Virus record (IMG/VR): IMGVR_UViG_3300025137_000006
Span: 1 to 36,383 of that record
Reading direction: 5' to 3' (one strand)
DNA from: a virus
Length of the DNA: 36,383 nucleotides
Positions 5,340 through 23,792 of this stretch are shown here, piece after piece. The number at the start of each line of letters is the position of its first letter. Position 1 is the stretch's first letter. Made by a program: the position numbers and the translations under genes. The notes beneath the pieces are model-generated. The model ran no database searches. It was given only the letters and a program-made list of their open reading frames with translations, and was not told the origin of the DNA.

Positions 5340-5363
5340 TCCAATAATAGAAAGTATAATACT

Positions 5364-6383: not shown

Positions 6384-6391
6384 ATAATTCT

Positions 6392-6421: not shown

Positions 6422-6424
6422 ATT

Positions 6425-6730
6425 ATGGAAATAATTAGCAAACCTCACGAGATCACTCAAGAAGCCATTGATCGTGCTTTTATGGATCAAGTTAAAAATA
6501 GCTTTGCGGAAGAGCGAGCTACGGAAGACTCTCGTCGTGATATTGCCCGAAAGGAAGCAACGGCAGAAAAAGGCAAGACGCATCCAGTTCTTGGTAAATG
6601 CGTAGCAACAATCCCAGCAAGGGATTATTTTAGAATGATTAAAAAATACGGCACTGAGCACGTTCATTCTAAAGAATTTTTAAAATATTACAATAAAACC
6701 TACTCAGATTTGAGTGCAAATAAAATATAG
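6425..6730 (+). CDS. Small head/neck-region protein, unknown
   Basis: A 101-residue charged protein starting at the ATG just 4 bases after the capsid terminator. The frame is open further upstream, but the terminator and the end of the capsid gene make earlier starts implausible. The N-terminal half is helical (I-D-R-A-F-M-D-Q-V-K). The C-terminal half has aromatic residues (D-Y-F-R-M-I-K-K-Y-G and F-L-K-Y-Y-N-K-T-Y). No Shine-Dalgarno is visible, so translation may be weak or leaderless after read-through. Function unknown. Its stop overlaps the next gene's GTG. Confidence 0.72.
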   Translation: MEIISKPHEITQEAIDRAFMDQVKNSFAEERATEDSRRDIARKEATAEKGKTHPVLGKCVATIPARDYFRMIKKYGTEHVHSKEFLKYYNKTYSDLSANKI

Positions 6731-7665: not shown

Positions 7666-7668
7666 ATT

Positions 7669-7989
7669 ATGAACACATATGTAGTAAACCGATATAATGT
7701 CCCCACTAAAGGAGCAACTTCACAGTTATTAACTTTTATAGGCAATAGTGGAACTGTAAAACAATTCGCCGCCCATCAAAAAGATACTAAGGTTATTTTT
7801 ATGAGTGTAACTGGAGGCGGAGTTTTTATGACAGTTGATGGAACCAATCCTACGACTAACGAGAATCATAAATTGTATGCGGGAAATAATTATTATTTTA
7901 ATTCTGACCTTATTCGTATTGCTAAATTTAAAGATGACCCTAATAACGCAAATACTGCGTATATTTATGCTTCCGAATTAACTAATTAA
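7669..7989 (+). CDS. Small beta-rich virion-region protein, paralogue A
   Basis: A 106-residue protein in the neck/tail region. It begins M-N-T-Y-V-V-N-R-Y-N, has a central F-M-T-V-D-G-T-N-P-T-T-N-E-N-H-K motif (about 53-68) and ends with an A-K-F segment. The T-x-D-G-x-x-P-T core resembles the Y-T-x-D-G-S-x-P-T signature of small beta-sandwich modules (chitobiase C-terminal type). The next gene has the same plan, so the two are tandem paralogues. Likely a decoration or tail-associated protein (inference). Confidence 0.72.
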   Translation: MNTYVVNRYNVPTKGATSQLLTFIGNSGTVKQFAAHQKDTKVIFMSVTGGGVFMTVDGTNPTTNENHKLYAGNNYYFNSDLIRIAKFKDDPNNANTAYIYASELTN

Positions 7990-7998
7990 TATTATTAT

Positions 7999-8349
7999 AT
8001 GAATTCTTATGATGTTAACAGGAATAATCCTAAGAATGCGGGTGTTGAGTCAAGGCAAAGGAATTTCCCTAAAAATGGAAATAAACTAGTAAAAACATTT
8101 TCTGAGTATTTAGACCCCAGGACAAGAACTTGCTTAATAAGTATAAGCGATACTACGGGAGGACCTCCTGCAATTGAGACAATGTGGTATACTTTTGATG
8201 GAAGCAAGCCAACACCTACAAATGGACACAAAATGACAAGTAGATCTATTTTAGAACTTTCTGCGGGTGCAGTTGAAACAGCAAAGTTTTCTAATCAACC
8301 TGGGATTCAAACATCACTAATTGTATTAAGAATGGATCAATTGGCTTAA
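7999..8349 (+). CDS. Small beta-rich virion-region protein, paralogue B
   Basis: A 116-residue protein, diverged duplicate of the preceding gene. The shared plan is M-N-S-Y-D-V-N-R-N-N at the start, V-K-T-F near residue 32, W-Y-T-F-D-G-S-K-P-T-P-T-N-G-H-K at about 62-77, then A-K-F. The shared Asp-Gly...Pro-Thr...His-Lys core is better conserved than the rest, suggesting a structural or binding loop. No signal peptide. Function unknown; structural role inferred from position. Confidence 0.72.
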   Translation: MNSYDVNRNNPKNAGVESRQRNFPKNGNKLVKTFSEYLDPRTRTCLISISDTTGGPPAIETMWYTFDGSKPTPTNGHKMTSRSILELSAGAVETAKFSNQPGIQTSLIVLRMDQLA

Positions 8350-8350
8350 A

Positions 8351-8518
8351 ATGGAAGACATTATTTTTAAATCAACAGTGGGTACGGGTGGTTTTATAGC
8401 TACTATTGAACTGACTCCAGTCAACGAAATACTTGGTTTTTGCATAGGTATATCAACTTTTCTTTATATGACGGGATCCGCTATCAAGATAATTAGGGAA
8501 CTTAAAAACAAAAAATGA
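8351..8518 (+). CDS. Small single-pass membrane protein, holin-like
   Basis: A 55-residue protein starting one base after the previous stop and overlapping the next start by four bases (ATGA). Residues about 24-47 (V-N-E-I-L-G-F-C-I-G-I-S-T-F-L-Y-M-T-G-S) form one clear hydrophobic helix, followed by a lysine/arginine-rich tail (R-E-L-K-N-K-K). Size, one membrane segment and coupling to a three-segment membrane protein suggest part of a holin pair, either holin or its inhibitor. No family assignment. Confidence 0.65.
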   Translation: MEDIIFKSTVGTGGFIATIELTPVNEILGFCIGISTFLYMTGSAIKIIRELKNKK

Positions 8519-8913
8519 CACCAGAATTACTAGCAATGCTCGGAGGAGGAGTCAGTGGCTTTATAATGAAGCTCATCGGCACACAGATGGACAATCAAGC
8601 CCGTCAGTTTGAGCGTATGATTACTTCTCAGCAAACAGCAGATGCTTCGGCAGATGCCGCCGCAAAACGCGATGGCGGGGTTATGGTTCGCAGGTTTCTA
8701 GTCGTATGCACAATCTTTGCGATTGTAATAGCCCCATTTGTCTTCGCGTGGACAGATGTAGGGGTAAGTGTATCTAGGGAGACAAACGGCTTTCTGGGGC
8801 TATTCAGGGGCGTTGAGTGGCAAACCGTGCAAGGATTCGTAATAATGCCAGAAGTAAGACAAACAGCTCTAGCTATTGTCGGTTTTTACTTTGGTTCATC
8901 TCAAGTCAAATAA
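8515..8913 (+). CDS. Three-transmembrane holin-like protein
   Basis: A 132-residue membrane protein. Hydrophobic segments lie at about 4-22 (G-G-G-V-S-G-F-I-M-K-L), 59-79 (R-R-F-L-V-V-C-T-I-F-A-I-V-I-A-P) and 114-131 (T-A-L-A-I-V-G-F-Y-F-G), with a charged Gln/Ala helix between the first two. This layout, with R-R-F before the second segment, matches what I recall of the 3TM holin family associated with gene transfer agents and marine phages. It would make the lesion that lets the cytoplasmic lysozyme (3427-3975) reach the wall. Confidence is good for a membrane protein and moderate for holin. Confidence 0.75.
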   Translation: MTPELLAMLGGGVSGFIMKLIGTQMDNQARQFERMITSQQTADASADAAAKRDGGVMVRRFLVVCTIFAIVIAPFVFAWTDVGVSVSRETNGFLGLFRGVEWQTVQGFVIMPEVRQTALAIVGFYFGSSQVK

Positions 8914-8914
8914 T

Positions 8915-9034
8915 ATGAAGAAATGCAATTGTGGAAAATCCAGTACCATGCCGAAGTGCGATGGTAGCTCTCATAATATTAAACCCAGAAATTTAGGTAG
9001 CGGTAAAAAAATGAACCGCAAACCATTAAAATAA
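8915..9034 (+). CDS. Miniature CDGSH-like iron-sulfur/zinc protein
   Basis: A 39-residue basic peptide starting one base after the holin-like stop. It reads M-K-K-C-N-C-G-K-S-S-T-M-P-K-C-D-G-S-S-H. This follows the CDGSH signature (C-x-C-x2-S/T-x3-P-x-C-D-G-S/A/T-H) with C4, C6, S9, P13, C15, D16 and G17 in exact register, but one extra Ser puts the histidine at 20 instead of 19. CDGSH domains bind a [2Fe-2S] cluster through three Cys and one His. Whether a cluster forms with the shifted His is unknown. The C-terminal half is Lys/Arg-rich, like its neighbours. Confidence 0.68.
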   Translation: MKKCNCGKSSTMPKCDGSSHNIKPRNLGSGKKMNRKPLK

Positions 9035-9055
9035 ACCCAGTAGGAGAAAATAGAT

Positions 9056-9247
9056 ATGCCAAATGTAGGAGGAAAAAAATTTCCATACACACCACAAGGA
9101 ATGGCGGCGGCAAGCCGTGCTCGCCAACCCCGTGCCAATGCAGTAAAACGCCCACGCCCAATGGCGGCAAAACGTCCAGCGGCTCGCCCAATGGGTCGTC
9201 CAGCGGCTCGCCCAATGGGTCGTCCAATGCCCAGGGGTCGTGGCTAA
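9056..9247 (+). CDS. Arg/Pro-rich basic protein, possible DNA-condensing virion protein
   Basis: A 63-residue protein with a good Shine-Dalgarno (TAGGAG, ~9041-9046). After a K-K-F-P-Y-T-P-Q-G-M-A-A-A start, which I know as a conserved beginning of small basic marine-phage proteins, the remainder is almost only R, P, A, M, K and G. An eight-residue unit R-P-A-A-R-P-M-G is present twice. Composition is protamine-like: strongly basic, disordered, no hydrophobic core. A role in binding packaged DNA or RNA is plausible but inferred only from composition and the late-gene position. The next gene starts at a GTG 8 bases before this stop. Confidence 0.7.
   Translation: MPNVGGKKFPYTPQGMAAASRARQPRANAVKRPRPMAAKRPAARPMGRPAARPMGRPMPRGRG
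9173..9220 (+). repeat. 24-bp tandem repeat, two copies
   Basis: Two exact 24-bp copies (9173-9196 and 9197-9220), starting CGTCCAGCGGCTCGCC, followed by a partial third (CGTCC). They encode the duplicated R-P-A-A-R-P-M-G unit, so the basic tail probably grew by slippage. Confidence 0.9.
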
Positions 9248-9491
9248 GATAGACAAAAGTAAGATGGCTTGCAACAAGCCCCGTAGAGATTCTTCTGGGG
9301 GGAAAAAATCTGTTGTAAAAGCTTGTCAAAATGGTAAAGAAAAAATTGTGCGTTTTGGTGATGCAAACATGACTATTAAGTCAAGTCAGCCAGATCGCAA
9401 GCGGTCTTATTGTGCTCGTAGCGGCGGAATAAAAGGCAAAGACGATAAACTTTCAGCCAACTATTGGTCACGCAAAGCTTGGAAATGTTAA
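9240..9491 (+). CDS. Small conserved basic phage protein (DUF5754-like)
   Basis: An 83-residue protein read from a GTG overlapping the preceding gene by 8 bases; an ATG (M9, 9264) gives a shorter alternative. The pattern M-A-C-N-K-P-R-R, then K-K-S-V-V-K-A-C-Q-N-G-K-E-K-I-V-R-F-G-D, a middle R-K-R-S-Y-C-A-R and a terminal W-S-R-K-A-W-K-C is one I recognise from many phage genomes. I associate it with DUF5754 from memory, with no known function. It has four cysteines and high charge, which could allow metal or nucleic-acid binding. Confidence 0.75.
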   Translation: MAKIDKSKMACNKPRRDSSGGKKSVVKACQNGKEKIVRFGDANMTIKSSQPDRKRSYCARSGGIKGKDDKLSANYWSRKAWKC

Positions 9492-9492
9492 C

Positions 9493-9621
9493 ATGAGTCT
9501 ATACGAAAATATAAATAAACGCAAAAAAGCGGGGACTTCTCGTCCTAAAAGCAAATCAACAATTAGTAAAAAATCCTACTCCAACATGAAGGCAGGTTTT
9601 CCTAAAAAGAAGAAAAAATAA
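9493..9621 (+). CDS. Small Lys-rich protein, conserved in marine phages
   Basis: A 42-residue protein beginning M-S-L-Y-E-N-I-N-K-R-K-K-A-G-T-S-R and ending in F-P-K-K-K-K-K. It fits exactly between the previous stop and the next ATG (9622). The M-S-L-Y-x-N-I-N-x-R-K-K-A-G-T-S-R start is familiar from other podovirus genomes, which supports a real gene. With its two neighbours it forms a run of highly basic small proteins in the late operon. Function unknown. Confidence 0.7.
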   Translation: MSLYENINKRKKAGTSRPKSKSTISKKSYSNMKAGFPKKKKK

Positions 9622-11583
9622 ATGTCGCGATTTTCGTCATACGGTCAGGCTGACTCTCAAATGGTTGATGAGTTGGATTCTGGTTTTTTTGGTTTTAATA
9701 ATCGGTTTAGACCTGATCAATTAAATCCAGGAGTTCTTGCAGACAGTCAAAATGGTCGCATGGATCTTAATGGCGAATGGCAAGTTCGTAAAGGTATTGA
9801 TATTATAAGTGGATCTCTTTTGGTTCCTGGGATTGGGCTTACATTGCCTTTTACACTAGATGACACAGGAACATCTCCCGTACTAGTAGATATAGTTCCA
9901 AAAGTGGTAGCCTCTTGTGCCTATTCAAATCCTTTAGACACAACTGGTCAGTTTATTATTGTAGCAACAAATTCGGAAGCAGTTTTAGTCAATTTAGATC
10001 CTCTCGTGCTTACAACAACCTCAATAGCATACCCAGCAGGAGTAGAAATAACGGGCAAAGCATCTTTAACACAAGCCTTTAATAAAGTTATTTTATTCAG
10101 AAGGGGTCAAACTCCGTTAATTTGGGATGGGAATTCAGCTAATGATTTTGTAAAAGCAGAAAGCGGTGATTTTCAACAGCCAGAACAACTTGGTGATGCT
10201 GGGAATAATACCGTTATTCTTAATGGGCAAGTAACTGTAACATCTACTGCTCACGGATTAAATGAAAAAGATAAAATTGTTATTACAGAATCAAGTAGTG
10301 ATCTAGTTGTTGGAACTGTATATGATGTAGCAACTGTACCCAATGCAAATACTTTTACATTTTTTGCACAAATATCTGATTTAGCCGCAAGCAATAATTA
10401 TTACAGCAAACCAGTTTCTGAAGGCGTTGGGTATATTAGAATGCCAGCACCAGAATACGGCGTGTATCATTCAGAAAGATTAGCGGTTCCCTTTGAGTTT
10501 AACGTTGAAACTACTGTTGATACTTATACTGACAGAGGGACAAGAGATGAAATTATTTTTTCTAATGGTCAAAACATTGAAGCATACGATGATTTAAATG
10601 GAAAATTTAGACCCAATGCTGGAACCGCTGATTTTATTGTAGGACTGCATTCTTTTACTAAAGACACACTTATTGTTTTTATGAGAAACAGTATTCATGT
10701 TATTAGTGGCACAACATCACTTCCATCCGCTCAAGTAACTTTAATTACAAATGAAATAGGTTGTGTTTCTAGAGATAGTATTGTTCAGGTAGGTGAAAAC
10801 ATTATGTTTCTTTCTGACAATGGCGTTTATGGCGTATCATTCCAGGATTTATACAATCTTCGGGGAAACGAAGTTCCATTGAGCGAATCAATAGATGCTA
10901 CAATACAAGATATTAATAAAAATGCTTGGAGCAATTCTGTTGGCGTTTATTATGATAACAAATATTATTTAGCAGTTCCAATAGGAACGGGTGTAAATGT
11001 TAATAATAAAATTGTTATTTATAATTTCTTAAATAAACAATGGGAAAGTGTAGATAAAGTTGATGACACAGCTAATTTTGATTTTAATCGTTTAATTGTA
11101 GCTGGAGATGGTCTTACCCGTGGTGTTTACGCAATAAATACATTTGGAGGAGTTCACAAACTAGAAGCTCGCACTGATGGCGTAGATCTTATTACCTCCG
11201 ATCCTTCTACTGTTGGTCTTGTTGAAACTTATAATATTCCCGCTGAGATTACAACTCGGCAGTTTACGTTAAAAACTATTGACCGCAAAAAATGGAATTC
11301 TTTTGAAATTTCTACTCAATCATCTCCCGAAAGAAATTCTGATTTTACCATTTTAGCCGAAACAGAAAATATTGATTATAATTTAAATCTTGGAACTTTG
11401 TCTGAACGATTAGATGGCGATCCTTTATTACAAAATGAAGATGTTTCCATACGTGGTAGAATAGGTAATAGTCGTGCATACGGCATTCAATTCAACATTA
11501 ACAATATAGTAGGTAGACCCAGAATACGATCGTTGAAAGTAACTGGTGCTCAAGCCTTTAGATCAACTAACACAGCAATATAA
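9622..11583 (+). CDS. Tail tube/nozzle protein, beta-propeller-like (T7 gp12 / TTPB analogue)
   Basis: A 653-residue beta-rich protein located where podoviruses encode the tail nozzle. Repeating blade-like strands are visible (for example I-M-F-L-S-D-N-G-V-Y-G-V near residue 394, N-K-Y-Y-L-A-V-P near 450, K-I-V-I-Y-N-F-L-N-K-Q-W-E-S-V near 470). Residues about 194-258 form a separate module with the pattern A-H-G-L-x-x-x-D-K-I-V-I...T-V-Y-D-V...N-T-F-T-F, a small beta domain often embedded in phage tail proteins. The stop overlaps the next ATG by one base. Assigned by position and fold pattern rather than by close homology. Confidence 0.7.
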   Translation: MSRFSSYGQADSQMVDELDSGFFGFNNRFRPDQLNPGVLADSQNGRMDLNGEWQVRKGIDIISGSLLVPGIGLTLPFTLDDTGTSPVLVDIVPKVVASCAYSNPLDTTGQFIIVATNSEAVLVNLDPLVLTTTSIAYPAGVEITGKASLTQAFNKVILFRRGQTPLIWDGNSANDFVKAESGDFQQPEQLGDAGNNTVILNGQVTVTSTAHGLNEKDKIVITESSSDLVVGTVYDVATVPNANTFTFFAQISDLAASNNYYSKPVSEGVGYIRMPAPEYGVYHSERLAVPFEFNVETTVDTYTDRGTRDEIIFSNGQNIEAYDDLNGKFRPNAGTADFIVGLHSFTKDTLIVFMRNSIHVISGTTSLPSAQVTLITNEIGCVSRDSIVQVGENIMFLSDNGVYGVSFQDLYNLRGNEVPLSESIDATIQDINKNAWSNSVGVYYDNKYYLAVPIGTGVNVNNKIVIYNFLNKQWESVDKVDDTANFDFNRLIVAGDGLTRGVYAINTFGGVHKLEARTDGVDLITSDPSTVGLVETYNIPAEITTRQFTLKTIDRKKWNSFEISTQSSPERNSDFTILAETENIDYNLNLGTLSERLDGDPLLQNEDVSIRGRIGNSRAYGIQFNINNIVGRPRIRSLKVTGAQAFRSTNTAI

Positions 11584-12512
11584 TGGCAATTTTATCTGTA
11601 AATACTCCTTATGTAGATGGAGGCACAGTTACATCTACAAATTTAAATGCACTTGTAACTAATGCTGCTTTTGTTTCTGGTTCAACAGATGGTGTTACGA
11701 CGGAACTTTCTAGTGGAGCTATTATTGTTAAAGATGGCGGTCTTGGTCTAAACAAGCTTAACACAAGTGTGCAAGCTAAATTGTTACAAGGTCTTGAAAT
11801 AGAAGCTAATGGTGAATCAATTATTGGTGGAACTAAAGCTGGAGATCAAAGAGGAACCTTTGCTCTTGATATACAAAACAAAGAACTTACTACTTCCGCA
11901 AACAGAGTAGCAAGTGGCGATTCCGCAGTTGCTTTCGGTTTTTCAAACATGGCTTCTGGGAATAATTCTTCTGCCGTTGGAAGTACTAATCAAGCAACAG
12001 CATTGTATTCTTCTACTTTTGGATATAATAATAGTGCCTCAGGTCAAAGTTCCGTTGCAATTGGAGACAATAATGGTGCCTCAGGTGAAAGTTCTGTTGC
12101 AATTGGAGACAATAATAGTGCATCTTCAAACCGTACTATTGCATTGGGTTACGGTAATTCTGCAACCTCAAGTAACTCATCTGCGATTGGGTCAAGTTGC
12201 AGTGTTAGCGGTACAGAATCTCATGCTTTTGGATCTGATGTTGCAATATCGTCTCCGTATAGTGTTGAAGTTGGTGTATGGTCAACTAGCTCAGTCAGAG
12301 ACTCTGCCGTAAAAATTACTAAAGACGGAGGTGTAGCTTTAACGTGCGAAAACAGTGCTACTGCTCCCTCCGATAATTCTACCCCTGGAAATGAAGACAT
12401 TGGAGAATTAGGAAGAAGTATGTTTACTATACAAAGAGATGGCGACGATTTTACTTTATATTTTAACGACGCTGGTACAATTAAAAGTGTTTCTTTAGGA
12501 ACCGTAACTTAA
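11583..12512 (+). CDS. Tail fibre with YadA/Hep_Hag-type repeats
   Basis: A 309-residue adhesin-like protein. After an N-terminal segment that probably attaches to the tail (V-D-G-G-T-V-T-S-T-N-L-N-A-L), residues about 107-225 carry repeated 14-residue units of the form A-[SVT]-G-x-x-S-x-A-[IVF]-G-x-x-N-x, for example S-G-E-S-S-V-A-I-G-D-N-N. These match the left-handed beta-roll repeats of trimeric autotransporter heads (YadA, Hep_Hag). The C-terminus (F-T-I-Q-R-D-G-D-D-F-T-L-Y-F-N-D-A-G) is a beta end cap. Predicted role: receptor binding. The near-identical S-S-V-A-I-G-D-N-N repeats suggest recent expansion. Confidence 0.8.
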   Translation: MAILSVNTPYVDGGTVTSTNLNALVTNAAFVSGSTDGVTTELSSGAIIVKDGGLGLNKLNTSVQAKLLQGLEIEANGESIIGGTKAGDQRGTFALDIQNKELTTSANRVASGDSAVAFGFSNMASGNNSSAVGSTNQATALYSSTFGYNNSASGQSSVAIGDNNGASGESSVAIGDNNSASSNRTIALGYGNSATSSNSSAIGSSCSVSGTESHAFGSDVAISSPYSVEVGVWSTSSVRDSAVKITKDGGVALTCENSATAPSDNSTPGNEDIGELGRSMFTIQRDGDDFTLYFNDAGTIKSVSLGTVT

Positions 12513-12550
12513 TTCTTGATTGAATTATAATTTATATATTTTGTGAGATA
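12513..12550 (+). promoter_or_regulatory. AT-rich gap with TATAAT, possible promoter for the sulfotransferase gene
   Basis: The 38-base gap is almost entirely A/T and contains TATAAT at 12526-12531, 20 bases before the ATG. No convincing -35 element lies 16-18 bases upstream. A separate promoter for the inserted sulfotransferase gene and the giant gene behind it is possible but weakly supported. Confidence 0.25.
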
Positions 12551-13369
12551 ATGATTATATCTCATAAAAATAAATTTACAGTATTAAGGGTTCCTAAAAC
12601 TGGAAGTACTAGTTTAGAGGCTTCTGTTCGTTTTTGTGGAGCTGTTCATGAAAATGATATTTGTTCTGAAACAGAAGATGCTTTTTTGCCAATTCAAAAC
12701 ATTCCTGAAACAGCAAAAGAACAATGCCGAAAACACGCTCTTATACTAGATATAATAGAGAAAAAAACAAAAAATAATTTAGAATTTAGTGAACAAGAAA
12801 AAGCATTAAAAAAGTGGAAAAGAAAATGGATAATTTTCATGGAACATAATACTCTAGATGATTGGTTTGAGGTTCCTTATTTTTCAAAATTAAATTTAAT
12901 TTCTAAAGAACAAGTTTTAGAATATAAACATTATGGTTTTATGCGTGATCCAATAAAAAGATACTTAAGTTCTTTTGTATTTCATCAGGGTTGTGCAAGT
13001 ATGTTTAAAAAACAAAACAGACCTATTACAATTGAATCATTCCAGGAGTTTACCTTAAAAGAACTTAAAAAACATCGTAATATTTTGTTTAGACCCCAAA
13101 AAGATTATTTTTATTTTGAAGGAAAACAAATCGCGGAACCACTTTTGTTTGACAATTGGGCTTTTGAGGCTTCTAGAATGATCAAAGAAATAGGATTTAA
13201 TCCATTGTCGGTTTATCCAAGATTTAAAGAAAAAGGAGGATTCCCAAATAAGACAAGAAATATAAAACCTTCGGTGGAAGAATGGGTGGACTCATGTGCT
13301 AAAATAAAAGATTATTTGCAGGAGCATTTTTTTGAAGATATAGAATTTTACCAAAGATACAAAAAATAA
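12551..13369 (+). CDS. Sulfotransferase-like protein 1
   Basis: A 272-residue protein with the two PAPS-binding signatures of sulfotransferases. The 5'-phosphosulfate loop is V-P-K-T-G-S-T-S-L (14-22). The 3'-phosphate site is R132-D-P-I-K-R-Y-L-S140-S-F. A His at 99 (F-M-E-H-N) could serve as the general base. Such enzymes move sulfate from PAPS to hydroxyls of sugars, lipids or protein tyrosines; the acceptor cannot be read from the sequence. The gene is more A+T-rich than the structural genes around it and looks like an inserted cargo gene. It ends 1 base before the giant repeat protein, so the two are probably translated together. A relative lies at 34219-34884. Confidence 0.82.
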   Translation: MIISHKNKFTVLRVPKTGSTSLEASVRFCGAVHENDICSETEDAFLPIQNIPETAKEQCRKHALILDIIEKKTKNNLEFSEQEKALKKWKRKWIIFMEHNTLDDWFEVPYFSKLNLISKEQVLEYKHYGFMRDPIKRYLSSFVFHQGCASMFKKQNRPITIESFQEFTLKELKKHRNILFRPQKDYFYFEGKQIAEPLLFDNWAFEASRMIKEIGFNPLSVYPRFKEKGGFPNKTRNIKPSVEEWVDSCAKIKDYLQEHFFEDIEFYQRYKK

Positions 13370-13370
13370 A

Positions 13371-16300
13371 ATGGGTTATACAAGTAGTAATTATACAACT
13401 TACGGCGGGGGCGGTGGCTACGGCGGTTATTACGGGTACGGCGGTAACGGTTATAAGACAGGTTATGCGGGTGATGGTAGTTTTTATGACGGAGTTGATT
13501 ACGTTATGGACGAATTCATGGTTTATGGCAATAACGATGGTTTTGGTAATTACGTTGATTTTGGTTATTTTGGGGATTTCTTTTCTCAAGATAGTTTTTA
13601 CAATGGCTACACTCTTCAATCTTACAGCGATGGTAGTGATGAGGTTGATTATTCCGATAATGACAGTTCAATTTATAGCGTATTTCGCCATCCTGACGCA
13701 ATGGAAGGCTCGTCCTGGAGGCAAAACAAACTTCCTCCTATTCAGAAAAAACGACAAAACGTAATGGATGGCACGCTTATGCGTGCTTTGATTCAAGGAG
13801 AAGGTAAGCAGTTTATACAAACAGTCTATGACGGTATAAAAGATCATCATCAAACCGATCCTAATTCTTTTGCGGCTAATACATGGCTTGCTCCAAATGG
13901 AAAAACATATGAACTTCCTCCTGCCAGCGAAGATGCTATAGGTACGGAAAACGAATTTGCTTCTCGTATTCAAAATTTTGTTGGTTCTTTTGACTACTTA
14001 AGGATGTATAATAGAAATGTTGCCCAGCGTCCTGAAGGAATGGGTGAAGATGGTGTTTTTGCAGGTTTTGTAGGAGAAAATCTTGATAGTAATAGTTATC
14101 AAGAATTTTTAAATTCGTCTAAATATTTTCCTCAAGTCTTAAATCAAGCTGGAGAAACTATATCTCGCGATGGCACAATTATTAGTTATCCTGATGGCTC
14201 TACCTTTAATGTTGATTTTGGCGATGTTACTAATTTTACTCCAGGAAATGCTAGCGGATTTGATGCAAACCAATTAAGTTTTGAAACAGATCCTAGTGCT
14301 CTTTCTGGTCAATACAGCAGATTTTACAATGGTTTTATAGATCAACACATAGAAAATTGGAGATTAGGAAATGATTGGACTACTTTAAGTATTGGATATG
14401 ACGGAAGTATTTATGGTGAAAATGGATACGACCAAAACGGTTATAACAGACAAGGACATGACAATGCAGGGTATGATAGAGATGGTTTTCATTACGAAGG
14501 ATACAATCAAAATGGATTAGACGCTAGTGGTGAAATTTGGCGTGATGAAGAGGGATACGATGTTCAAGGATATGATATTAGTGGATTTGATATACAAGGT
14601 CTTGACGTTAATAATCGTGATGTTAATGGATACGATTTAGATGGACGTGATTTTCTGGGTTATGATCGCGATGGATACGATGGAGGAGGACGCGATGCCT
14701 TAGGTTATGATCGTGCGGGTTTTGACAACACTGGATATAATGAGGACGGATATGATATAAATGGTTTAGACCGTTTAGGATTTAATGCCGATGGTTTTAA
14801 CCAAGGTGGTTTCAACTCAGGTGGTTTTAATACTGATGGATTTAACGAATCGGGTTTTAACGAATTAGGTTTCAATCTTGAAGGTTATAATGCAGGTGGT
14901 TTTGATTCTTTTGGTTATGATCTTGAAGGATACGATCAAGGGGGACGCGATGTATTAGGTTATGACCGTGACGGATATGATGTTTACGGATATAATGAAG
15001 ACGGATATAATTCCAATGGCTATGATAATTTAGGATTTAACGAACAGGGACTCAATGACATGGGATATAATTCCGATGGCTTTGATACTGATGGATATAA
15101 TTTAACTGGTTTTAATTCAGACGGTTACAATATTGACGGGTACAACCAAGGTGGTTATAATCCCGATGGTTACGATTCGGATGGATATAACGCTCAGGGT
15201 TTTAATGCTGAAGGTTATGACCGCGAAGGTTATGCAGAAAACGGCTTTAATAGCGATGGATATAATCGCCAAGGTTTTGATGCTGATGGATACAATGCCG
15301 ACGGTTTTAATGCTGATGGTTACAATGTTAACAATTTTGACAGGCTTGGATACAATTCCGAAGGCTTTAACAGTTTAGGATATAATTCCGACGGATTTGA
15401 TAAAGACGGATTTAATGCCGATGGTTTTAATGCTGATGGTTATAACAAAAATGGATATAATTCGGACGGATATAATTCTGACGGGTACAATCAAGGTGGA
15501 TATAATTCTGACGGTTTTAATAGCGATGGATATAATGCCTTAGGTTTTAATCCCGAAGGATATAATTCTGAAGGTTATGACAATTTAGGATATAATTCCA
15601 ACGGATTTAACTCTAGTGGTTTTAATGCTGATGGTTATAACAGCCAGGGATTTAATAATTTAGGTTATAACTCTAGTGGTTATGATTCTTTTGGTTATGA
15701 TTCCGAAGGATACGACCCGCAAGGAAGAGATTTATTAGGTTATGATGTTGAAGGGTACGATTCTTTTGGTTATGATTCCGAAGGATATGACAAACAAGGA
15801 TACGACAACTTAGGTTTTAATAGCAATGGATATAATGCCTCAGGTTTTGATTCTGAAGGATATACTCCTGAAGGTTATGACGATTTAGGTTACGATCTTG
15901 AAGGTTTTGATAGTTTAGGATTTGATAACACTGGATATAATATTCTTGGTTTTGACAATTTAGGATACGACAAAGACGGGTTTAATGATCTTGGTTTGGA
16001 CGACGATGGCTACGATTTAGATGGATTTAATTCTGCTGGTTTTAATTCAGACGGTCTAGACGAATTAGGTTTTAACATATACGGTTTTAACGAAAACGGT
16101 TTGAACATTGATGGTTATAACATTCAGGGTTATAATAGTGATGGTTTTAACATTGACGGATATAATGCTTCTGGATACAACGAACAGGGATTTAATGTTG
16201 ACGGATTTAATCCTGCTGGATTAGATGCTGAAGGATATAACCAAAACGGAGTTCGTCCCGATCCTGATGGTTATTGGTACACTAAGGATGGAGAAGTTGA

Positions 16301-19300
16301 CAATACATACAATGGTCAAGTTGATCCTTCTCTTGGAGGAAGTTATACGGATGCTAATGGCGTGGTTCAAGAGATCACTCCAGAAATCTATTCAGTTGCT
16401 GATCCTACTAGTCCAGTTGGAACTGGTGGTGGTAATGGCATTGATCCTAGTATAGATCCTGGCAATGTTCTTGATGATCCAGGTGGTGCTGGTGGTGCTG
16501 GTGGTGGTGATAATACGGGTGGTGGTGGTAGTGCCGAACCAGGCACATCTACTAATACAGGGACTCACACAATTGATTGGAATAAATTGCAAGAAATATC
16601 ATCCCGATATTTAGGAACTCGCAGACATTACAATGACTTCTTAAGAACCCAAGCGGGACAACAAGCCGCTACAAGTGTTGGTGACTTGTTAAATAAATAT
16701 ATGTCACCCTCGGAGGATGATCCATTAACAAGATCCGATGAGTTTATTAATAAAGTATTAAACATAGCAACTGCAAATGGTTTTCAGGGTTTGGATGCTT
16801 TTGCTTTATCAGTTAATTTATTAGAAGGAATTGTTAATACAGATTTGTTAGATGTTCCAAATATGGGATTTTTAATTAACAATATATTTCAATCCGCAGT
16901 TCCAGAAAATGTTATAAATCTACTAGAAGAAATTACTCCAGACTTCATGGAGAAAATGACTGGTTTGGATAATTTATTCCAAAACGGAAATTTACCTACT
17001 GATTATTTAGGTCAAAATTTTAATCTAAAACAATATTTGCTGGCTGACCTTGGTATGGCTAGTGAAGTTAATTATGGTCTTTTACCTGCTACTGAAAACA
17101 TTCAACAGCAACAAATTGATTTTGTAACTGAACTATTAGGACCAAATGTAGCCCCAGGATTTCTTGCGGACAATGATGTCACTGATTTAGATTTCTTTAA
17201 AAAGGCAATTGATTTAGCTGAAGACGGCGGATTAGGCGATGAATTTAATGAATTAGTTTCTCAAATTAACAACATTTATGTTGGGCAAGGCGGTGAGTAT
17301 ATAATGACTCAAGAGCAATTTGACGAATGGGAAGCCGCCTTAGGGGAGGAACCAAGCTTGTGGAACAAATTGACTACATTGACTGCGGACGGATTTGGTA
17401 CTTTGCTTCAACCCTTTGAGGGTATTGGAAATCTCATGGAAAGCATGGGTTTTTACCAGCAATATTACATGGGCGGGGCTTTGCCCACTATGGGTCTAAA
17501 TTTCTTAGGTGCCGCCGCAATGGGAGGTTTTCCTTTTACGGGCACATTGCTTAATGTATTAGGAGACGCATTGGCTCCTTCTGGACAAGAACTATCTGAT
17601 TGGCTTCAAGAAAGAGGCATTGATGCACATACCGCTACCGTTGCAGATATTAGTGCATGGTTAAATGAAAGTGATGTTAATTACAATACTATTCCTCCCT
17701 TTGATCCAATAACTGGAGAATTTGGAACAAGATGGAACGGTAGCTCCTCTACTGTAGATGATCTTGTAAGCGGTATAGATTTAACTGGTCCAACCCCAGA
17801 AGTAAATCTTGGAGGTGACAATACCCTAGTCACGGATTTAACCACTCCAACCCCAGAAGTAAATCTTGGAGGTGACAATACTTTAGTTACAGATTTAACT
17901 GATAATTTTAATTTTGATACAGATAATGATGGACTCTTTGATACATTTATATCAAATCTTGCTGATTTTGCGGGGGATAATACTTTAACATCTCAATTAA
18001 TTAACGGCGACCTTAGCATTACAGATGGTATATTAACGGTAGTTGATAATACAATAAGCGGCATCGTGGGCGATGGCGGTGGCACTGGCGGTGATGTCGT
18101 TGGCGGCGGCGGCGGTGGCGAAACTGTTGGCGGTGGCGAGGGTGGCATAAATCCCGTCCCAGAAGTCTTTCCGCCCAATCCAGAGATTGACGGCGGTGAT
18201 AATATAAATCCAGATCCTACGCCAGAAACAGGAACAAACCCAGGAACTATGCCAGAAACAACCACACCAGGAGCACCAGGATTAGGCGATGAATATGACA
18301 TTGGCTATGAGACGGCAAAATATTTAATTGGAGCAGAAGCCGCAGAACGGTTTAGAGGTCTAGGCATGGACAATGAGGAGTTAATGGCTCTTGTTGACAG
18401 TTATTCCTCCAGGGTGTCTCAGGATGAACTCGCTCGTTTAATTGAATTAAATCGTGGCGAACAAGCTGGAATTAACGAACTCCGCGATGTACAAAAAGCT
18501 TCCGACCTTGAGTTAATTGGTGATTACGGAACGCAATACGCCGATGCAATTCGGAGTCTTGATCCTACTTCAATGTCCATTTTGGGTGATCAAAAAGCCT
18601 TAAGCGATAGATTATACCGAAGAGCGGCTGGTGATTTAACTGCTGAAGAACAAACGGATGCCGAAGAGAGAGCTTTTGAAATAGCCGCTATGAGCGGAAG
18701 GACATTGGATTCTACACGAGTTGCTAATACTATAAGATCCGAAGAAGACTTTAGAACTGGTTTAGAAAATCGTGCACAACAAGCTGGAAGCCTTGGTTAC
18801 AATATGTCTAGAAATATTACGGGAGATATTCCTGGAATGCTTCTTGGCACGGGAGGTTCGCCTTATGGAACTGGAGTTGGGCAGGTTGTTCCACCTATGG
18901 GTATTGGTGACGCAATTTCCGCAGGGGTTAATTCTTACGCACAACAGCAAAACATACAAAAGGCAGAAGCACAGATTGCACAACTTCAACAATCACAAGC
19001 CGCCGCTGAAGCTAGTGGTGATTTAACTTCCGCCGAAAGATTTGCTAATACTATCTTAGAAATTCAACAAACTTTAAACATTGCAAATGCAACAATGGGA
19101 GTAATAGGGAATATTCCTGACACGATAAGTAATACTATGGATGCGGGTCGCAGTCTTCTTAACTATGGCTCTCAGGCAGTCAGTGGAATTACGAATTTCC
19201 TTACTGGAGGAAGCAGATCAACTCCTTCTGCTCAAACATTTGTTCCTGGTTCTAGTTTTAATGTTCCTTCAAGCACTTGGGTAAATAGCAGATATGAAGC

Positions 19301-19334
19301 TCCAACAAGTTTTGGTGGTATTACTTTTCCTTAA
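13371..19334 (+). CDS. Giant 1987-residue virion protein with 120 G-[YF]-[DN]-x-x pentapeptides
   Basis: This gene takes about 16% of the genome. Visible regions: (1) residues 1-100, Gly/Tyr/Asp-rich low complexity; (2) about 105-340, mixed, globular-looking; (3) 352-959, pentapeptides in strict register apart from one eight-residue unit (G-E-I-W-R-D-E-E); (4) about 960-1060, acidic then poly-Gly linker; (5) about 1065-1640, helical/mixed, with a hydrophobic stretch near 1373-1404, a duplicated 19-residue unit near 1475-1510 and another Gly linker near 1565-1590; (6) about 1645-1980, a helical domain with S-D-R-L-Y-R-R-A-A-G-D-L-T, which I know from podovirus virion proteins, and a Gln/Ala coiled coil near 1865-1885. 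It precedes two other large proteins, as internal/ejection proteins do. A fibre or ejected protein are both possible. Confidence 0.78.
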   Translation: MGYTSSNYTTYGGGGGYGGYYGYGGNGYKTGYAGDGSFYDGVDYVMDEFMVYGNNDGFGNYVDFGYFGDFFSQDSFYNGYTLQSYSDGSDEVDYSDNDSSIYSVFRHPDAMEGSSWRQNKLPPIQKKRQNVMDGTLMRALIQGEGKQFIQTVYDGIKDHHQTDPNSFAANTWLAPNGKTYELPPASEDAIGTENEFASRIQNFVGSFDYLRMYNRNVAQRPEGMGEDGVFAGFVGENLDSNSYQEFLNSSKYFPQVLNQAGETISRDGTIISYPDGSTFNVDFGDVTNFTPGNASGFDANQLSFETDPSALSGQYSRFYNGFIDQHIENWRLGNDWTTLSIGYDGSIYGENGYDQNGYNRQGHDNAGYDRDGFHYEGYNQNGLDASGEIWRDEEGYDVQGYDISGFDIQGLDVNNRDVNGYDLDGRDFLGYDRDGYDGGGRDALGYDRAGFDNTGYNEDGYDINGLDRLGFNADGFNQGGFNSGGFNTDGFNESGFNELGFNLEGYNAGGFDSFGYDLEGYDQGGRDVLGYDRDGYDVYGYNEDGYNSNGYDNLGFNEQGLNDMGYNSDGFDTDGYNLTGFNSDGYNIDGYNQGGYNPDGYDSDGYNAQGFNAEGYDREGYAENGFNSDGYNRQGFDADGYNADGFNADGYNVNNFDRLGYNSEGFNSLGYNSDGFDKDGFNADGFNADGYNKNGYNSDGYNSDGYNQGGYNSDGFNSDGYNALGFNPEGYNSEGYDNLGYNSNGFNSSGFNADGYNSQGFNNLGYNSSGYDSFGYDSEGYDPQGRDLLGYDVEGYDSFGYDSEGYDKQGYDNLGFNSNGYNASGFDSEGYTPEGYDDLGYDLEGFDSLGFDNTGYNILGFDNLGYDKDGFNDLGLDDDGYDLDGFNSAGFNSDGLDELGFNIYGFNENGLNIDGYNIQGYNSDGFNIDGYNASGYNEQGFNVDGFNPAGLDAEGYNQNGVRPDPDGYWYTKDGEVDNTYNGQVDPSLGGSYTDANGVVQEITPEIYSVADPTSPVGTGGGNGIDPSIDPGNVLDDPGGAGGAGGGDNTGGGGSAEPGTSTNTGTHTIDWNKLQEISSRYLGTRRHYNDFLRTQAGQQAATSVGDLLNKYMSPSEDDPLTRSDEFINKVLNIATANGFQGLDAFALSVNLLEGIVNTDLLDVPNMGFLINNIFQSAVPENVINLLEEITPDFMEKMTGLDNLFQNGNLPTDYLGQNFNLKQYLLADLGMASEVNYGLLPATENIQQQQIDFVTELLGPNVAPGFLADNDVTDLDFFKKAIDLAEDGGLGDEFNELVSQINNIYVGQGGEYIMTQEQFDEWEAALGEEPSLWNKLTTLTADGFGTLLQPFEGIGNLMESMGFYQQYYMGGALPTMGLNFLGAAAMGGFPFTGTLLNVLGDALAPSGQELSDWLQERGIDAHTATVADISAWLNESDVNYNTIPPFDPITGEFGTRWNGSSSTVDDLVSGIDLTGPTPEVNLGGDNTLVTDLTTPTPEVNLGGDNTLVTDLTDNFNFDTDNDGLFDTFISNLADFAGDNTLTSQLINGDLSITDGILTVVDNTISGIVGDGGGTGGDVVGGGGGGETVGGGEGGINPVPEVFPPNPEIDGGDNINPDPTPETGTNPGTMPETTTPGAPGLGDEYDIGYETAKYLIGAEAAERFRGLGMDNEELMALVDSYSSRVSQDELARLIELNRGEQAGINELRDVQKASDLELIGDYGTQYADAIRSLDPTSMSILGDQKALSDRLYRRAAGDLTAEEQTDAEERAFEIAAMSGRTLDSTRVANTIRSEEDFRTGLENRAQQAGSLGYNMSRNITGDIPGMLLGTGGSPYGTGVGQVVPPMGIGDAISAGVNSYAQQQNIQKAEAQIAQLQQSQAAAEASGDLTSAERFANTILEIQQTLNIANATMGVIGNIPDTISNTMDAGRSLLNYGSQAVSGITNFLTGGSRSTPSAQTFVPGSSFNVPSSTWVNSRYEAPTSFGGITFP
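14424..16247 (+). repeat. 1.8-kb array of 15-bp (pentapeptide) repeats
   Basis: From GGATAC at 14424 to 16247 the coding sequence repeats every 15 bases as GG(A/T)-TA(T/C) or TT(T/C)-(A/G)A(T/C)-NNN-NNN. I count 120 units of five residues plus one of eight, with no other break. Position 2 is mostly Tyr or Phe (sometimes Leu, Arg), position 3 Asp or Asn, position 5 often Asp, Glu, Gln, Gly or Leu. Codons vary between units (GGA/GGT, TAT/TAC), so DNA identity is much lower than protein identity. Longer units recur, such as the pair beginning near 15684 and 15759 (G-Y-D-S-F-G-Y-D-S-E-G-Y-D). Confidence 0.95.
17790..17900 (+). repeat. 57-bp tandem duplication within the giant gene
   Basis: The segment starting CCAACCCCAGAAGTAAATCT at 17790 recurs at 17847. 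It encodes two copies of a 19-residue unit (P-T-P-E-V-N-L-G-G-D-N-T-L-V-T-D-L-T). The copies differ by a few silent changes. Confidence 0.9.
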
Positions 19335-19352: not shown

Positions 19353-20729
19353 ATGGCAAGAATGGCAACTGGCGTAGCCGCCCAAAATTTTAGTCCTATA
19401 TCAAGCATTAACTACGACACACTGTCGCAGTACCAAGCTCTTGGGTCACAAATGGAGCTTCAAGCTTCACAGGCTAAAAATGACCGTGTACGCGACGGGT
19501 TGCAAGAAGCAGAAAAAAATCGCTTGCTCAACCAGCAAAACACGGGAAAAATTGCTGGTTTGTTAAATAGCAATCCAGAGCTAATGAAACAAATAGATTC
19601 TGGTGTTGCTCCTAAGGCAGTTACACAAGCTTTAAAAAGTTACGAAAAGGGTGGAGGTAATCTTAATTCTACTGCTTTGTTAGCTAACTACCTCGGTTCA
19701 AGTGCTGAACAAATTCAAAATCAACAAGTTTTAGATCTGGCTGAGTATCAAAAAAAATCAGCCGCTAACACCGCAGGCGTGAAAGCACAAGCCGATCTTT
19801 TAGAACAACAAAATAAAGCAAATCAACCGCAACCCTTGTTGTTTGATGCACAAGGTTTAGAACAATTCCAATCTGGGCAAGGAAGTGGTGGTAATTTTGG
19901 AGTAACGCCTAAAAATGTAGGTGGTGACATCATGTATCAAGTTGGTGCTCAACAGCTAGCTGGTTCTGGTGCTAAAGAAATGTTCATGCTTCCCAATGAA
20001 CTAAAAGCGTTAAAGGATAGAACGGGCATGGAATATGACATACGCCCATTTGTTGATCCAAAAACAGGTAAAGAGGGATACATGGTTGGCTCTTCTTACA
20101 ATCCTGCGGAAACTTACGATCAAATTTATATGTCATCTAAAGCAAAAGCAAGAGGTGAAGCTGATGTAGCCCGTGAAGACGAAATTGTAAATTGGGCACA
20201 GACTGATAGAATTGTAGCAGAGGCAAGTATGCAAAAATACAATACTGTGATTAATGGTTTAAAAACTCGCACTATTGACATTGGAGGAATCTCAGAATTT
20301 GTTCCAGACATTGCTGGTTTGCGTGAGTCAGTGCGTGGGGCAATGAATCCATCTGGTCAAGACGCAGTAGACAACGTGCGGTCTGTTGTTTTCTTATCAT
20401 TAAAAGCTATTTTGGGTGGTCAATTTTCTAAGGATGAAGCTAATCGTTTAGTGTCGGCGGCATACAATCCTCAACTAACAGGAGAGGCTGGTTATGCGGC
20501 AAACATACAAAGGCTAGAATTAGCTAACTCAGTTTTAATAAGGATTTACGATGCAAAAATGGAAGAATTAACTGCTTTACAAAGCGGAATAGAATATAAG
20601 GGACCTAGCCCTTCGGCAGTTGCTACATCTGAAATTAACCGCTTGCAACAATCAGTTGGTGACTCCATGTATTTAAAAACACAAAGCGGTTTAAGAATAA
20701 ATAACATTAGAGCGGTAAACAAAAAATAA
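19353..20729 (+). CDS. Probable internal virion protein, Gln-rich coiled coil
   Basis: A 458-residue protein between the giant protein and the 1018-residue protein. The first ~170 residues are Gln/Ala/Asn-rich and helical (M-E-L-Q-A-S-Q-A-K-N-D-R-V-R near 33, then L-L-N-Q-Q-N-T-G-K), typical of internal core or ejection proteins. A mixed middle includes R-P-F-V-D-P-K-T-G-K-E-G near 231. The C-terminal third is helical again. No enzymatic motif. The place in the gene order corresponds to the internal core proteins of T7-like phages; this is inferred from synteny, not homology. Confidence 0.68.
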   Translation: MARMATGVAAQNFSPISSINYDTLSQYQALGSQMELQASQAKNDRVRDGLQEAEKNRLLNQQNTGKIAGLLNSNPELMKQIDSGVAPKAVTQALKSYEKGGGNLNSTALLANYLGSSAEQIQNQQVLDLAEYQKKSAANTAGVKAQADLLEQQNKANQPQPLLFDAQGLEQFQSGQGSGGNFGVTPKNVGGDIMYQVGAQQLAGSGAKEMFMLPNELKALKDRTGMEYDIRPFVDPKTGKEGYMVGSSYNPAETYDQIYMSSKAKARGEADVAREDEIVNWAQTDRIVAEASMQKYNTVINGLKTRTIDIGGISEFVPDIAGLRESVRGAMNPSGQDAVDNVRSVVFLSLKAILGGQFSKDEANRLVSAAYNPQLTGEAGYAANIQRLELANSVLIRIYDAKMEELTALQSGIEYKGPSPSAVATSEINRLQQSVGDSMYLKTQSGLRINNIRAVNKK

Positions 20730-20735
20730 TCAAAT

Positions 20736-23700
20736 ATGACAACATACGAAGTTAGTACAGATAATGGCTATCGTTTTCAATTTGATGCAGGAAGAACTCC
20801 TACGGAAGAAGACGCAATGGAGGCATTGGAAGTCAATGTAAACAATGCTACTACAAATTTATCTCTAGGTTATAAAATGACCCAGGAACAAAATACATTA
20901 GCGTTCCAGGGAAAATATGATAAAAGAGCAGAGAAAAAGAAATTTTACACTCAAAATATAAGTGATTATTTAACAATTCCTCAAAGCGATTTTGTTTATG
21001 ATAAGGGTGCTCCAGCGGGACTCCGCAATAAAATGTCCTACTTGCGTTCTTTAGGATCTAAAGCTTGGTATTTATCTGAAAAATTTGGAAAAGAAAATGT
21101 GCGACCAGTTTCTATAAAAGGAACAGAAGCACTTGTATACAAAGATCCATCAGATGAAAAATGGCGGCTTTTTGATTCTATGACCGTAGAACTAGCTGAC
21201 TTTACAGAAATACAATCAGAAATTATTCCAATAGGTGCTAGTATTGTTGCTGGGTTAAAAGCTTTTGCCGCAGGAACTTTAGTAAGCACTCCAGTTGGTG
21301 GTGTAGTAGCTGGAGCATCAGCTTCAACCGCAACGGAATTTGCAGTAGGAAGCAGTCAAGATGCTATTGCAAGAAAAGCTTTAGGAATCCCTGAAGACAT
21401 TGGCGATGGATTTATTAAAAGAAGGAGACAAGAGGCATATTTAAATATGGGTCTTGAATTGGCTATCCCCGCTATTGGCAAAATAGGTTTTGCTAGTCGC
21501 ATAGGAAGAGCTAACGCTGACTTAGCGGTTAGAGAAATTAATGCTGTTATGAAACAATTGGACATGGATCCAATTCGTATGCAACAGGGCGGTATAAGTT
21601 CTATAAACAGATTAGCAGATATATCGGGTAAGTTTCCTAATTCTTTGGGTGCTCAATGGAACGCAGAAATTAGAACCGCAATTAGCGGAAAGATTCAATC
21701 TTTGTTTGGAGAAGAAATGAGTGAGGAAACTGTGGATTCTATCCTTAGCAGATCCATCCTTAACATGAGTGAACAATTTGATGCAGATGAAAAATTATTA
21801 AGAGATGCGTTAGATCAATTGATAATTAAAAAGGCTGGCGTAGAAACAGCTACCGAAACCGCAGTAACAAAAGAAGCTCAGAAAAAAGCAAAGAAAGTAT
21901 TTCAAAAAGAATTAAACCGACGGACAAGGAACATTGCGGGAAGAGATGTAGATCCAGAAGCATTAAGTATGCAATACAAACGTCAAATGATGGATCATTA
22001 TGTTAACACTGAGGCTCGCGTGTCTAATATGTATGACGATGCTTATAATTTGCTCAGTAATGTCACTCTTCCAAATCAAAAAATTGCAGGTATTTTAAAC
22101 AAACAAAAAAATCGTGCTATTCTGGATGCGGACGATGAAGTTATTGCTACGCTTGCTCCTACTGGAAGGACTGCTTCTGGTAGGGCTGTAAACACTCTGG
22201 ATGATGTTTTAACTGAACCAATGAGTTTCCGTCAGTTAAACGAATTAATACAGCAAACACGGCAAAAAGCTGGATACAACGCTACTGACGTTAATCCTAA
22301 TCAATCGGTTTATAGGCAACTAAGTAAAGATTTAGAGGCTCAACGGGATGCTGTTTTAGAACTTGGCACAACTCCTGTTGCTGGAAAAGAAATGTTTGAA
22401 AATGCCAATACCGCATTCAAAATGGAAATTCAACCGCTTCGGGAAAATGTAATTAAAAAACATATTACTGCTCCAAAAGGTCAAAACTATGGCGAAGCAA
22501 TTAAGTTAGCCAAAGCTGGACAACCCTTTGAGGAGGCTTTGCCCAAGTTAGAAATGTTTACAATCGGCGGCATGGAGTTAATACAAGATGCTTTAAGCAC
22601 TCCAGCAAAAGCCAGAGCGTTTTTAAGGGCTTCGGGCGACACTTTGGAGAACCGTAAACTGTTGCGTGAAATGTGGCTTGTTGATAAAGGCATTGTTGGC
22701 GGTCAAGATATACCAGTATCAGCTTTAAAGTTTACCAAGGATGATAGGGCAATGGTATCTACACTGTGGGAAATGAATGTTGACGGTATAAACCAACGCT
22801 GGAAAGTTCTACAAGATATTGCCACATTTGCCAAAACAGAAAAAGGTTTTGTTGAAGGTCTTACAAGACAGACGGTTGATGAAATAATGTCGGAATCCAC
22901 AAGCAAAACAACTAAAGAACTGACGGAATTGGGCATAGAAGAAACCCGCCTTACGGATGAGTTAGCGGATTTGCTTAATGATAATTTCTTTAAACTTATG
23001 GGTAAAGGTCAAGTGCCCCTGCCAGAAGGATCGGCAACAATAGAAACCTTTGCGGATTTTATAATTAATCTAAAAAACCCTACGGATTTTGATAACATAT
23101 TGCAAAGATTCATTGACAAGGGAGACGGATCTGACCATGCCCTACGGCTTGCAGTCCTTCAATCAATGACAAACAAAGCAGGTCGTAAAACCGATTTTGC
23201 TCAACTAGATAGTAATTTCGGGCAACTTTGGAACCCCCAGTTGATGGAGAGGGAACTTGGAAGAAACGAAACTAATCTTCGGAAACTTTTGGGAGACGAC
23301 AAATACGAAAATTTTGTTGGACTCAACAGGGGTATGGATCGTACGTCCGCTACTTTACAAACAAAGCGTGACCCGCTTGCCCCTAGATTCAATGTAAGCG
23401 GAGGTGGTAGACTTTCTGCATTTTTCCCTAATGTCTACGGTTTTACCGCTGACAGAGTGACTAAACTTTTGATTTGGAATCAAATTAAAAACCCAATTGA
23501 TTGGAAAAAAATGGTGTCCGCCGAGGATTTTGATAGGCTCAATGAGGCTACATTAAGAAGTTTCTTCTTGGTCGGAAACTTTGCTGATTTGGTTAATGAA
23601 GCGGACATTGACCCCGATTTCCGTCTATGGCTAGACGAGACTTATGGATTGCTTCAAGATGCCGCCATGAAGAAGGGCGTTCAAATGGGCACTGAAGAAT

Positions 23701-23792
23701 ATGCACCCCCCGTGATGCAGAACTTCAACGGTGAACTTCCACCACCCCCGCCTCCCAGCTACAGCAGAAGTCCCAACATGGGAATGCAATAA
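20736..23792 (+). CDS. Large internal/ejection protein candidate, 1018 residues
   Basis: This is the last gene of the rightward virion block. It begins T-Y-E-V-S-T-D-N-G-Y-R-F-Q-F-D, a short beta start that I know from large tail or ejection proteins, followed by T-P-T-E-E-D-A. Residues about 163-205 are hydrophobic and small-residue-rich (G-A-S-I-V-A-G-L-K-A-F-A-A-G-T-L-V and G-G-V-V-A-G-A-S-A), possibly membrane-inserting. The remainder is long charged helix (E-A-Q-K-K-A-K-K-V-F near 385), ending in a Pro-rich tail (P-P-P-P-P-P). I see no lytic transglycosylase motif. A role in genome delivery is inferred from size and position. Confidence 0.68.
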   Translation: MTTYEVSTDNGYRFQFDAGRTPTEEDAMEALEVNVNNATTNLSLGYKMTQEQNTLAFQGKYDKRAEKKKFYTQNISDYLTIPQSDFVYDKGAPAGLRNKMSYLRSLGSKAWYLSEKFGKENVRPVSIKGTEALVYKDPSDEKWRLFDSMTVELADFTEIQSEIIPIGASIVAGLKAFAAGTLVSTPVGGVVAGASASTATEFAVGSSQDAIARKALGIPEDIGDGFIKRRRQEAYLNMGLELAIPAIGKIGFASRIGRANADLAVREINAVMKQLDMDPIRMQQGGISSINRLADISGKFPNSLGAQWNAEIRTAISGKIQSLFGEEMSEETVDSILSRSILNMSEQFDADEKLLRDALDQLIIKKAGVETATETAVTKEAQKKAKKVFQKELNRRTRNIAGRDVDPEALSMQYKRQMMDHYVNTEARVSNMYDDAYNLLSNVTLPNQKIAGILNKQKNRAILDADDEVIATLAPTGRTASGRAVNTLDDVLTEPMSFRQLNELIQQTRQKAGYNATDVNPNQSVYRQLSKDLEAQRDAVLELGTTPVAGKEMFENANTAFKMEIQPLRENVIKKHITAPKGQNYGEAIKLAKAGQPFEEALPKLEMFTIGGMELIQDALSTPAKARAFLRASGDTLENRKLLREMWLVDKGIVGGQDIPVSALKFTKDDRAMVSTLWEMNVDGINQRWKVLQDIATFAKTEKGFVEGLTRQTVDEIMSESTSKTTKELTELGIEETRLTDELADLLNDNFFKLMGKGQVPLPEGSATIETFADFIINLKNPTDFDNILQRFIDKGDGSDHALRLAVLQSMTNKAGRKTDFAQLDSNFGQLWNPQLMERELGRNETNLRKLLGDDKYENFVGLNRGMDRTSATLQTKRDPLAPRFNVSGGGRLSAFFPNVYGFTADRVTKLLIWNQIKNPIDWKKMVSAEDFDRLNEATLRSFFLVGNFADLVNEADIDPDFRLWLDETYGLLQDAAMKKGVQMGTEEYAPPVMQNFNGELPPPPPPSYSRSPNMGMQ

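Follow-up and report, generated by a model that had tools for sequence, protein, structure and literature searches.

The source phage, which is small and marine-type, encodes a giant protein (P0001) containing 120 pentapeptides of the form G-[YF]-[DN]-x-x, and the best-supported role for this array is that of a spacer or rod, open to exchange, within a giant protein of the ejection type. An ejection protein enlarged several-fold by an N-terminal extension is the most likely identity of P0001. We give roughly even chances to the fuller reading that P0001 is the expanded first ejection protein of the phage and that the array is its exchangeable long spacer or rod. Pattern searches place the array in a widespread class; it is not a one-off. 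The P0001 gene occupies 16% of the window, the whole 36,383-nucleotide stretch of DNA that was analyzed. The ends of this 36-kb record share a 99-nt repeat, and the record therefore looks complete. No near-identical DNA was found among named phages in the collection searched. The features of P0001 and its neighborhood are as follows.

9622..11583 (+): nozzle/head-closure-like tail protein, a conserved neighbor
11583..12512 (+): fiber-like protein with YadA-head repeats
11766..16109 (+): hypervariable cassette (3' part of the fiber gene, sulfotransferase, P0001 N-terminus and array), from DNA comparison with the relative L001
12551..13369 (+): sulfotransferase (PF03567), 1 nt upstream of the P0001 gene
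13371..19334 (+): P0001, 1987 residues, first gene of a putative ejection operon, from its slot and C-terminal homology
13371..14423 (+): N-terminal region, residues 1-351, with a Gly/Tyr/Asp-rich start, fast diverging
14424..16247 (+): pentad array G-[YF]-[DN]-x-x, residues 352-959, 7 + 113 units
14529..14552 (+): eight-residue interruption GEIWRDEE, residues 387-394
16548..18050 (+): conserved middle region, residues 1060-1560, 94% identical in amino acids in L001
17777..17899 (+): 57-bp tandem repeat, 2.2 copies (TPTPEVNLGGDNTLVTDLT)
18288..19331 (+): C-terminal domain, residues 1640-1987, homologous to stand-alone slot proteins of relatives
19353..20729 (+): 458-residue protein, second gene of the putative ejection operon, from position only
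20736..23792 (+): 1018-residue protein, third gene of the putative ejection operon, from position only

Register, divergence and distribution of the pentads

Seven pentads at residues 352-386 are separated by the eight-residue break from the 113 that follow at residues 395-959. Among the 112 units of residues 395-954, the G[YF][DN] triad is exact in 97, and the inexact units mostly have L or R in place of the aromatic residue or N in place of Gly. Gly occupies its position in 110 of these units, the aromatic position holds Y (60), F (40), L (7) or R (5), and the third position holds N in 62 and D in 48. A single register takes 98 of the 105 G[YF][DN] triads of P0001, compared to at most eight in 1000 codon shuffles. 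This count confirms the original prediction of 120 pentads in near-perfect register with one eight-residue exception. That prediction also attributed the register to selection on the protein and not to recent DNA slippage, which is borne out by Ka/Ks at each pentad position and by third-base identity. When the array was aligned with that of L001, Ka/Ks was 0.017 for Gly, 0.085 for the aromatic residue, 0.073 for D/N, 0.70 for x1 and 0.34 for x2; these values are rough, as parts of the repeat alignment are uncertain and synonymous sites are almost saturated. The Gly codons of the array are mixed (GGT 51, GGA 50, GGC 5, GGG 4), and third-base identity is 0.51 between neighboring units and 0.53 between random pairs. 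Because neighboring third bases are no more alike than random ones, we reject recent slippage as the origin of the array.

Synonymous distance to L001 is about 1.0 in the array (0.70 in its best aligned part), compared to 0.10-0.19 in the flanks. The DNA match to L001 ends at 11765 and restarts at 16110; the cassette between these points is 63-72% identical in nucleotides where alignable, and its flanks are 91-94% identical. Thus the fiber end, sulfotransferase gene, N-terminus and array appear either to have been replaced as a block or to have diverged jointly. Within the fiber gene, positions 12019-12147 contain 42-bp tandem repeats coding for YadA-head-like repeats, and the fiber is also divergent in relatives. 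The N-terminal frame of the L001 giant protein (5688-10823 and 4997-5731 of that record) is interrupted by a frameshift or sequencing error.

The original prediction implied that the array was unique, which proved wrong: pentads of the same class also turned up in phages other than this one and in bacteria and archaea. Among viruses, a seven-pentad DNA pattern matched 29 stretches in 27 contigs apart from the source record, and an eight-pentad pattern matched at least 118 stretches in one-per-species prokaryote genomes. A few of these matches may not be genes, being either perfect repeats of low complexity or short frames. In two samples of genomes, arrays were present in 4 of 391 and 2 of 392, or about 1% or fewer. 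The array-bearing proteins range from thaumarchaeal proteins of 250 residues, composed of pentads almost throughout, to proteins of more than 1800 residues in syntrophic Clostridia. The phages L009, L016 and L017 have an array and an Amidoligase_2 domain in the same open reading frame, and L020 has an array in a kinase-like protein. At least four paralogs of about 370-440 residues, every one with a terminal pentad array, are encoded on one 70-kb viral contig (L007). We found no description of the pentad motif in the open-access literature searched.

The putative ejection slot and its occupants in relatives

The gene order around P0001 is nozzle, fiber, sulfotransferase, P0001, the 458-residue protein and the 1018-residue protein. 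P0001 is thus the first gene of the putative ejection operon after the nozzle and tail genes, matching the gp14-gp15-gp16 order of ejection genes in T7-like phages (PMC8954989). The C-terminal 350 residues of P0001 have homologs in related phages: in many of these the post-fiber slot encodes a homologous stand-alone protein of 288-514 residues, and in phage C75C1 the giant slot protein has a homologous C-terminus. The C-terminal domain has a weak match (E 8e-4) to the DNA-ejection pilot protein family phrog_8689, with only 1 of 15 members matching that family. On the basis of C-terminal homology, operon order and this weak pilot match, P0001 is most likely an extended ejection protein, and gene order and homology suggest that it is packaged in the virion and ejected.

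What stands ahead of the conserved C-terminal domain differs between relatives. The slot protein of L001 has at least 115 pentads, that of L013 has about 40 in a broken register, and that of L041 has only 6, beside helical AEEARL repeats. Other relatives have unrelated repeats in this slot: GGDTNA hexads in L058, DxDGDG repeats of the Ca-binding type in L053, and YTLPEF repeats of about 60 residues in C75C1, L073 and L074. The swapping of unrelated repeats in one slot suggests that sequence is of less importance here than length and extension. We propose that P0001 is an enlarged version of the first ejection protein, an internal component of the virion, in a phage with a short tail. In this protein, a very long N-terminal extension would precede a conserved C-terminal ejection-protein domain, and the pentad array would form the spacer or rod of that extension. 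If the job of the array is set by its length and regularity and not by its exact sequence, the array would be expected to change length, diverge fast and give way to unrelated repeats, as is seen among relatives. The array may form an ordered rod, perhaps a solenoid that completes a turn roughly every 13-14 residues, and such a rod may span a gap inside the virion or reach across the envelope of the cell as DNA enters.

Ordered rod or disordered chain

Structure prediction of the repeat units, as proposed originally, gave high confidence with an alignment of the repeat family and low confidence without one. When AF2 was given residues 595-744 with 45 natural array segments, pLDDT was 97.3 and pTM 0.71, with pLDDT above 96 in all five models (5/5), and DSSP assigned hardly any strand or helix. 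A run on 550 residues with no alignment gave a pLDDT of 33; the two runs differ in both length and alignment. AF2 is known to produce solenoids for repeats that are confident but unrealistic (PMC11795689), and the model of residues 595-744 is therefore only weak evidence. A structure search with the model matched no chain in the PDB at E≤10 and nothing with confidence in BFVD. Since Foldseek may handle near-perfect repeats poorly, the lack of a match to a known fold does not prove that the fold is new.

A solenoid would be expected to leave a periodicity in the array itself, as the residues at the free positions (x1 and x2) should follow the turn. In a set of 56 arrays, the signal of acidic residues at x2 is strongest at a period of 2.67 pentads (z 4.5; p 0.003 when all frequencies are considered), where synonymous sites in the same arrays have no significant peak. 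In a stricter set of 34 groups, with one array per group and the source phage excluded, acidic residues at x2 again peak at 2.67 (p 0.06 over all frequencies, 0.003 in the band 2.53-2.9) and basic residues at x1 peak at 2.86 (p 0.011 over all frequencies, 0.006 in the band); the 2.67 band was first noticed in data that included the test arrays, so these p values are somewhat optimistic. Charge at x1 and x2 gave no signal in the period-4 band in the 34 groups (p 0.42-0.76), and one of four synonymous measures was borderline in the 2.53-2.9 band (p 0.055), with otherwise no clear signal. True pentapeptide repeats analyzed by the same method peak at 4.0 (z 5.6), and this control also has unexplained peaks of z about 4 elsewhere, so that a single z of that size needs care. 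These results are moderate support for an ordered repeat in which one turn takes about 13-14 residues. Between the solenoid and the disordered chain named in the original prediction, we lean toward an ordered rod, as favored by the periodicity and by AF2 with an alignment. It is a tentative further step, which we consider rather improbable as a whole, to regard the pentad as a solenoid class of its own, so far undescribed, that has a non-integer turn of about 2.7 pentads (13-14 residues) and serves phages, bacteria and archaea as a rod; the rod of this phage would then be the longest seen here in a virus and part of a DNA-ejection machine.

Alternatively, the array may be a disordered chain in which evenly spaced Tyr and Phe act as weak stickers between spacers, providing a gel-like filling or a tether. 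We consider this possible, though short of probable. In the charge-hydropathy plot its composition falls among disordered chains (mean hydropathy 0.38 compared to a boundary of 0.47, net charge -93), 19% of its residues are aromatic with a spacing of 5 in 84 of 105 steps, Y and F interchange freely, and the low pLDDT of the single-sequence AF2 run is consistent with disorder. However, a disordered chain would need neither a strict five-residue register across 560 residues nor a 2.67-unit periodicity common to the free positions of unrelated arrays, and the high pLDDT obtained with natural segments also argues against it, subject to the bias of AF2 for repeats. The other structure originally suggested, a Ca2+-binding rod, found no direct support in the array, and a Pfam scan detected no RTX-type Ca-binding repeat family in P0001, although the relative L053 does have repeats of that type in the same slot.

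Two other explanations concern what surrounds the array. Rapid allele replacement is typical of host-contact parts of phages, and the array and fiber lie within one hypervariable cassette, as would be expected if the cassette were host-recognition gear and the array an adhesin or decoy that binds or shields at the cell surface. This is unlikely, given the fusion of the array to a conserved ejection-type C-terminal domain and the generic repeats that otherwise occupy the slot. It is less likely still, to the point of being hard to credit, that the array is a substrate whose Tyr or Asp/Asn residues are modified by phage sulfotransferases and an Asp/Asn beta-hydroxylase. The genome does encode an aspartyl/asparaginyl beta-hydroxylase-like protein (PF05118, E 1e-12; 34877-35506, +), unusual for a 36-kb phage, adjoining a second sulfotransferase gene (34219-34884). 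Acidic residues neighbor Tyr in the array, a sulfotransferase gene is also found upstream in L001 and L013 and is absent there in the array-free C75C1, and amidoligase domains are fused to arrays in the three phages named above. On the other hand, the hydroxylase was found in none of the 36 records of arrays or relatives (several being fragments, with no control match), amidoligase was found in only 4 of 28, one being C75C1, and the upstream sulfotransferase belongs to PF03567, which is not a known tyrosylprotein family. Given this lack of consistent co-occurrence, we reject the hydroxylase and amidoligase as general partners of the array. The minus strand also carries genes for a gamma-glutamyl cyclotransferase (30518-30994), a class-II glutamine-amidotransferase-like protein recognized by eye (31043-31399) and an amidoligase (32093-32971), a trio that resembles peptide-modifying systems reported in other phages.

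If the pentad forms an ordered rod, it would be a simple repeat whose fold differs from the pentapeptide helix, present in scattered bacteria, archaea and phages and with no Pfam family of its own. Even if it is disordered, the exchangeable spacer that we favor would indicate that phage ejection-type proteins can swap unrelated repeats, which bears on how such proteins reach across cell envelopes. To our knowledge, this is still an open question for most podoviruses.

Comparison with known repeats and ejection proteins

Pentapeptide-repeat proteins (PF00805) share with P0001 a five-residue unit with one aromatic or aliphatic residue. Their fold is a right-handed quadrilateral beta-helix with four units per turn and a small residue two before the central L/F. 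In contrast, P0001 has G before the aromatic residue and D/N after it, the residue two before the aromatic in the 112 units is D (34), L (19), E (14), Q (10) or N (10) and not A/S/C/T/V, and the period is near 2.7 units and not 4. Neither P0001 nor a piece of the array matched PF00805 or PF13599 at E≤1, and a perfect ADLSG repeat scored 126 bits as a control. Family scan, residue pattern and the periodicity control together lead us to reject membership, in support of the original view that the array is not the known pentapeptide-repeat fold.

A profile search intended to place the array in a described family gave two scores above cut-off, each over part of the array and each at the level of composition. 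PF25296, the decapeptide of DotG/IcmE, scored 52.4 bits against a cut-off of 45; this match is composition-level, because a perfect DotG-type unit scores 196, compared to 20 for a perfect G-Y-N/G-F-D unit and 19 for a perfect unit of pentapeptide-repeat proteins. PF05287 scored 68 bits against a cut-off of 29, and we do not accept kinship with this mammalian hair (PMG) family, as the match comes from Gly/Tyr composition. The DotG/IcmE repeats of type IVB secretion resemble the array in having G-F steps and a long repeat in an envelope-associated machine. They differ in that P0001 has Gly strictly every fifth residue, lag 2 is not dominant, the alternating 10-residue DotG unit is not found, and a Pfam scan detected no TrbI/VirB10 domain (PF03743) in P0001. 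The NCBIfam DotG model scored 55 against a cut-off of 750. We therefore reject membership in the DotG family; the family scans and phmmer matches look like shared G-F spacing. In a gammaproteobacterial TrbI/VirB10-domain protein (L183:5578-7749, +), a G-[YF]-[DN] array lies N-terminal to the domain, as the decapeptide repeats do in DotG.

P0001 shares operon slot and order with the podovirus ejection proteins gp14, gp15 and gp16 of T7, and its C-terminal domain is homologous to the stand-alone protein in the corresponding slot of related phages; T7 gp14 itself gave no sequence match. A gp14-type protein is carried in the virion, is ejected and makes an outer-membrane pore. Whereas gp14 in the T7 family varies by less than 30% around 200 residues (PMC8954989), P0001 is ten times that size, at about 2000 residues, with a long repeat-bearing N-terminal extension. 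Its nearest counterpart is CDS0001 of phage C75C1 (OQ984151), also very large, in the same slot and with a homologous C-terminal domain. The two genomes are syntenic through DnaB, SSB, an Erf-like protein, exonuclease, cyclotransferase and amidoligase, and onward through the SU10-type capsid, nozzle, fiber and giant protein, but CDS0001 has the YTLPEF repeats where P0001 has the pentad array.
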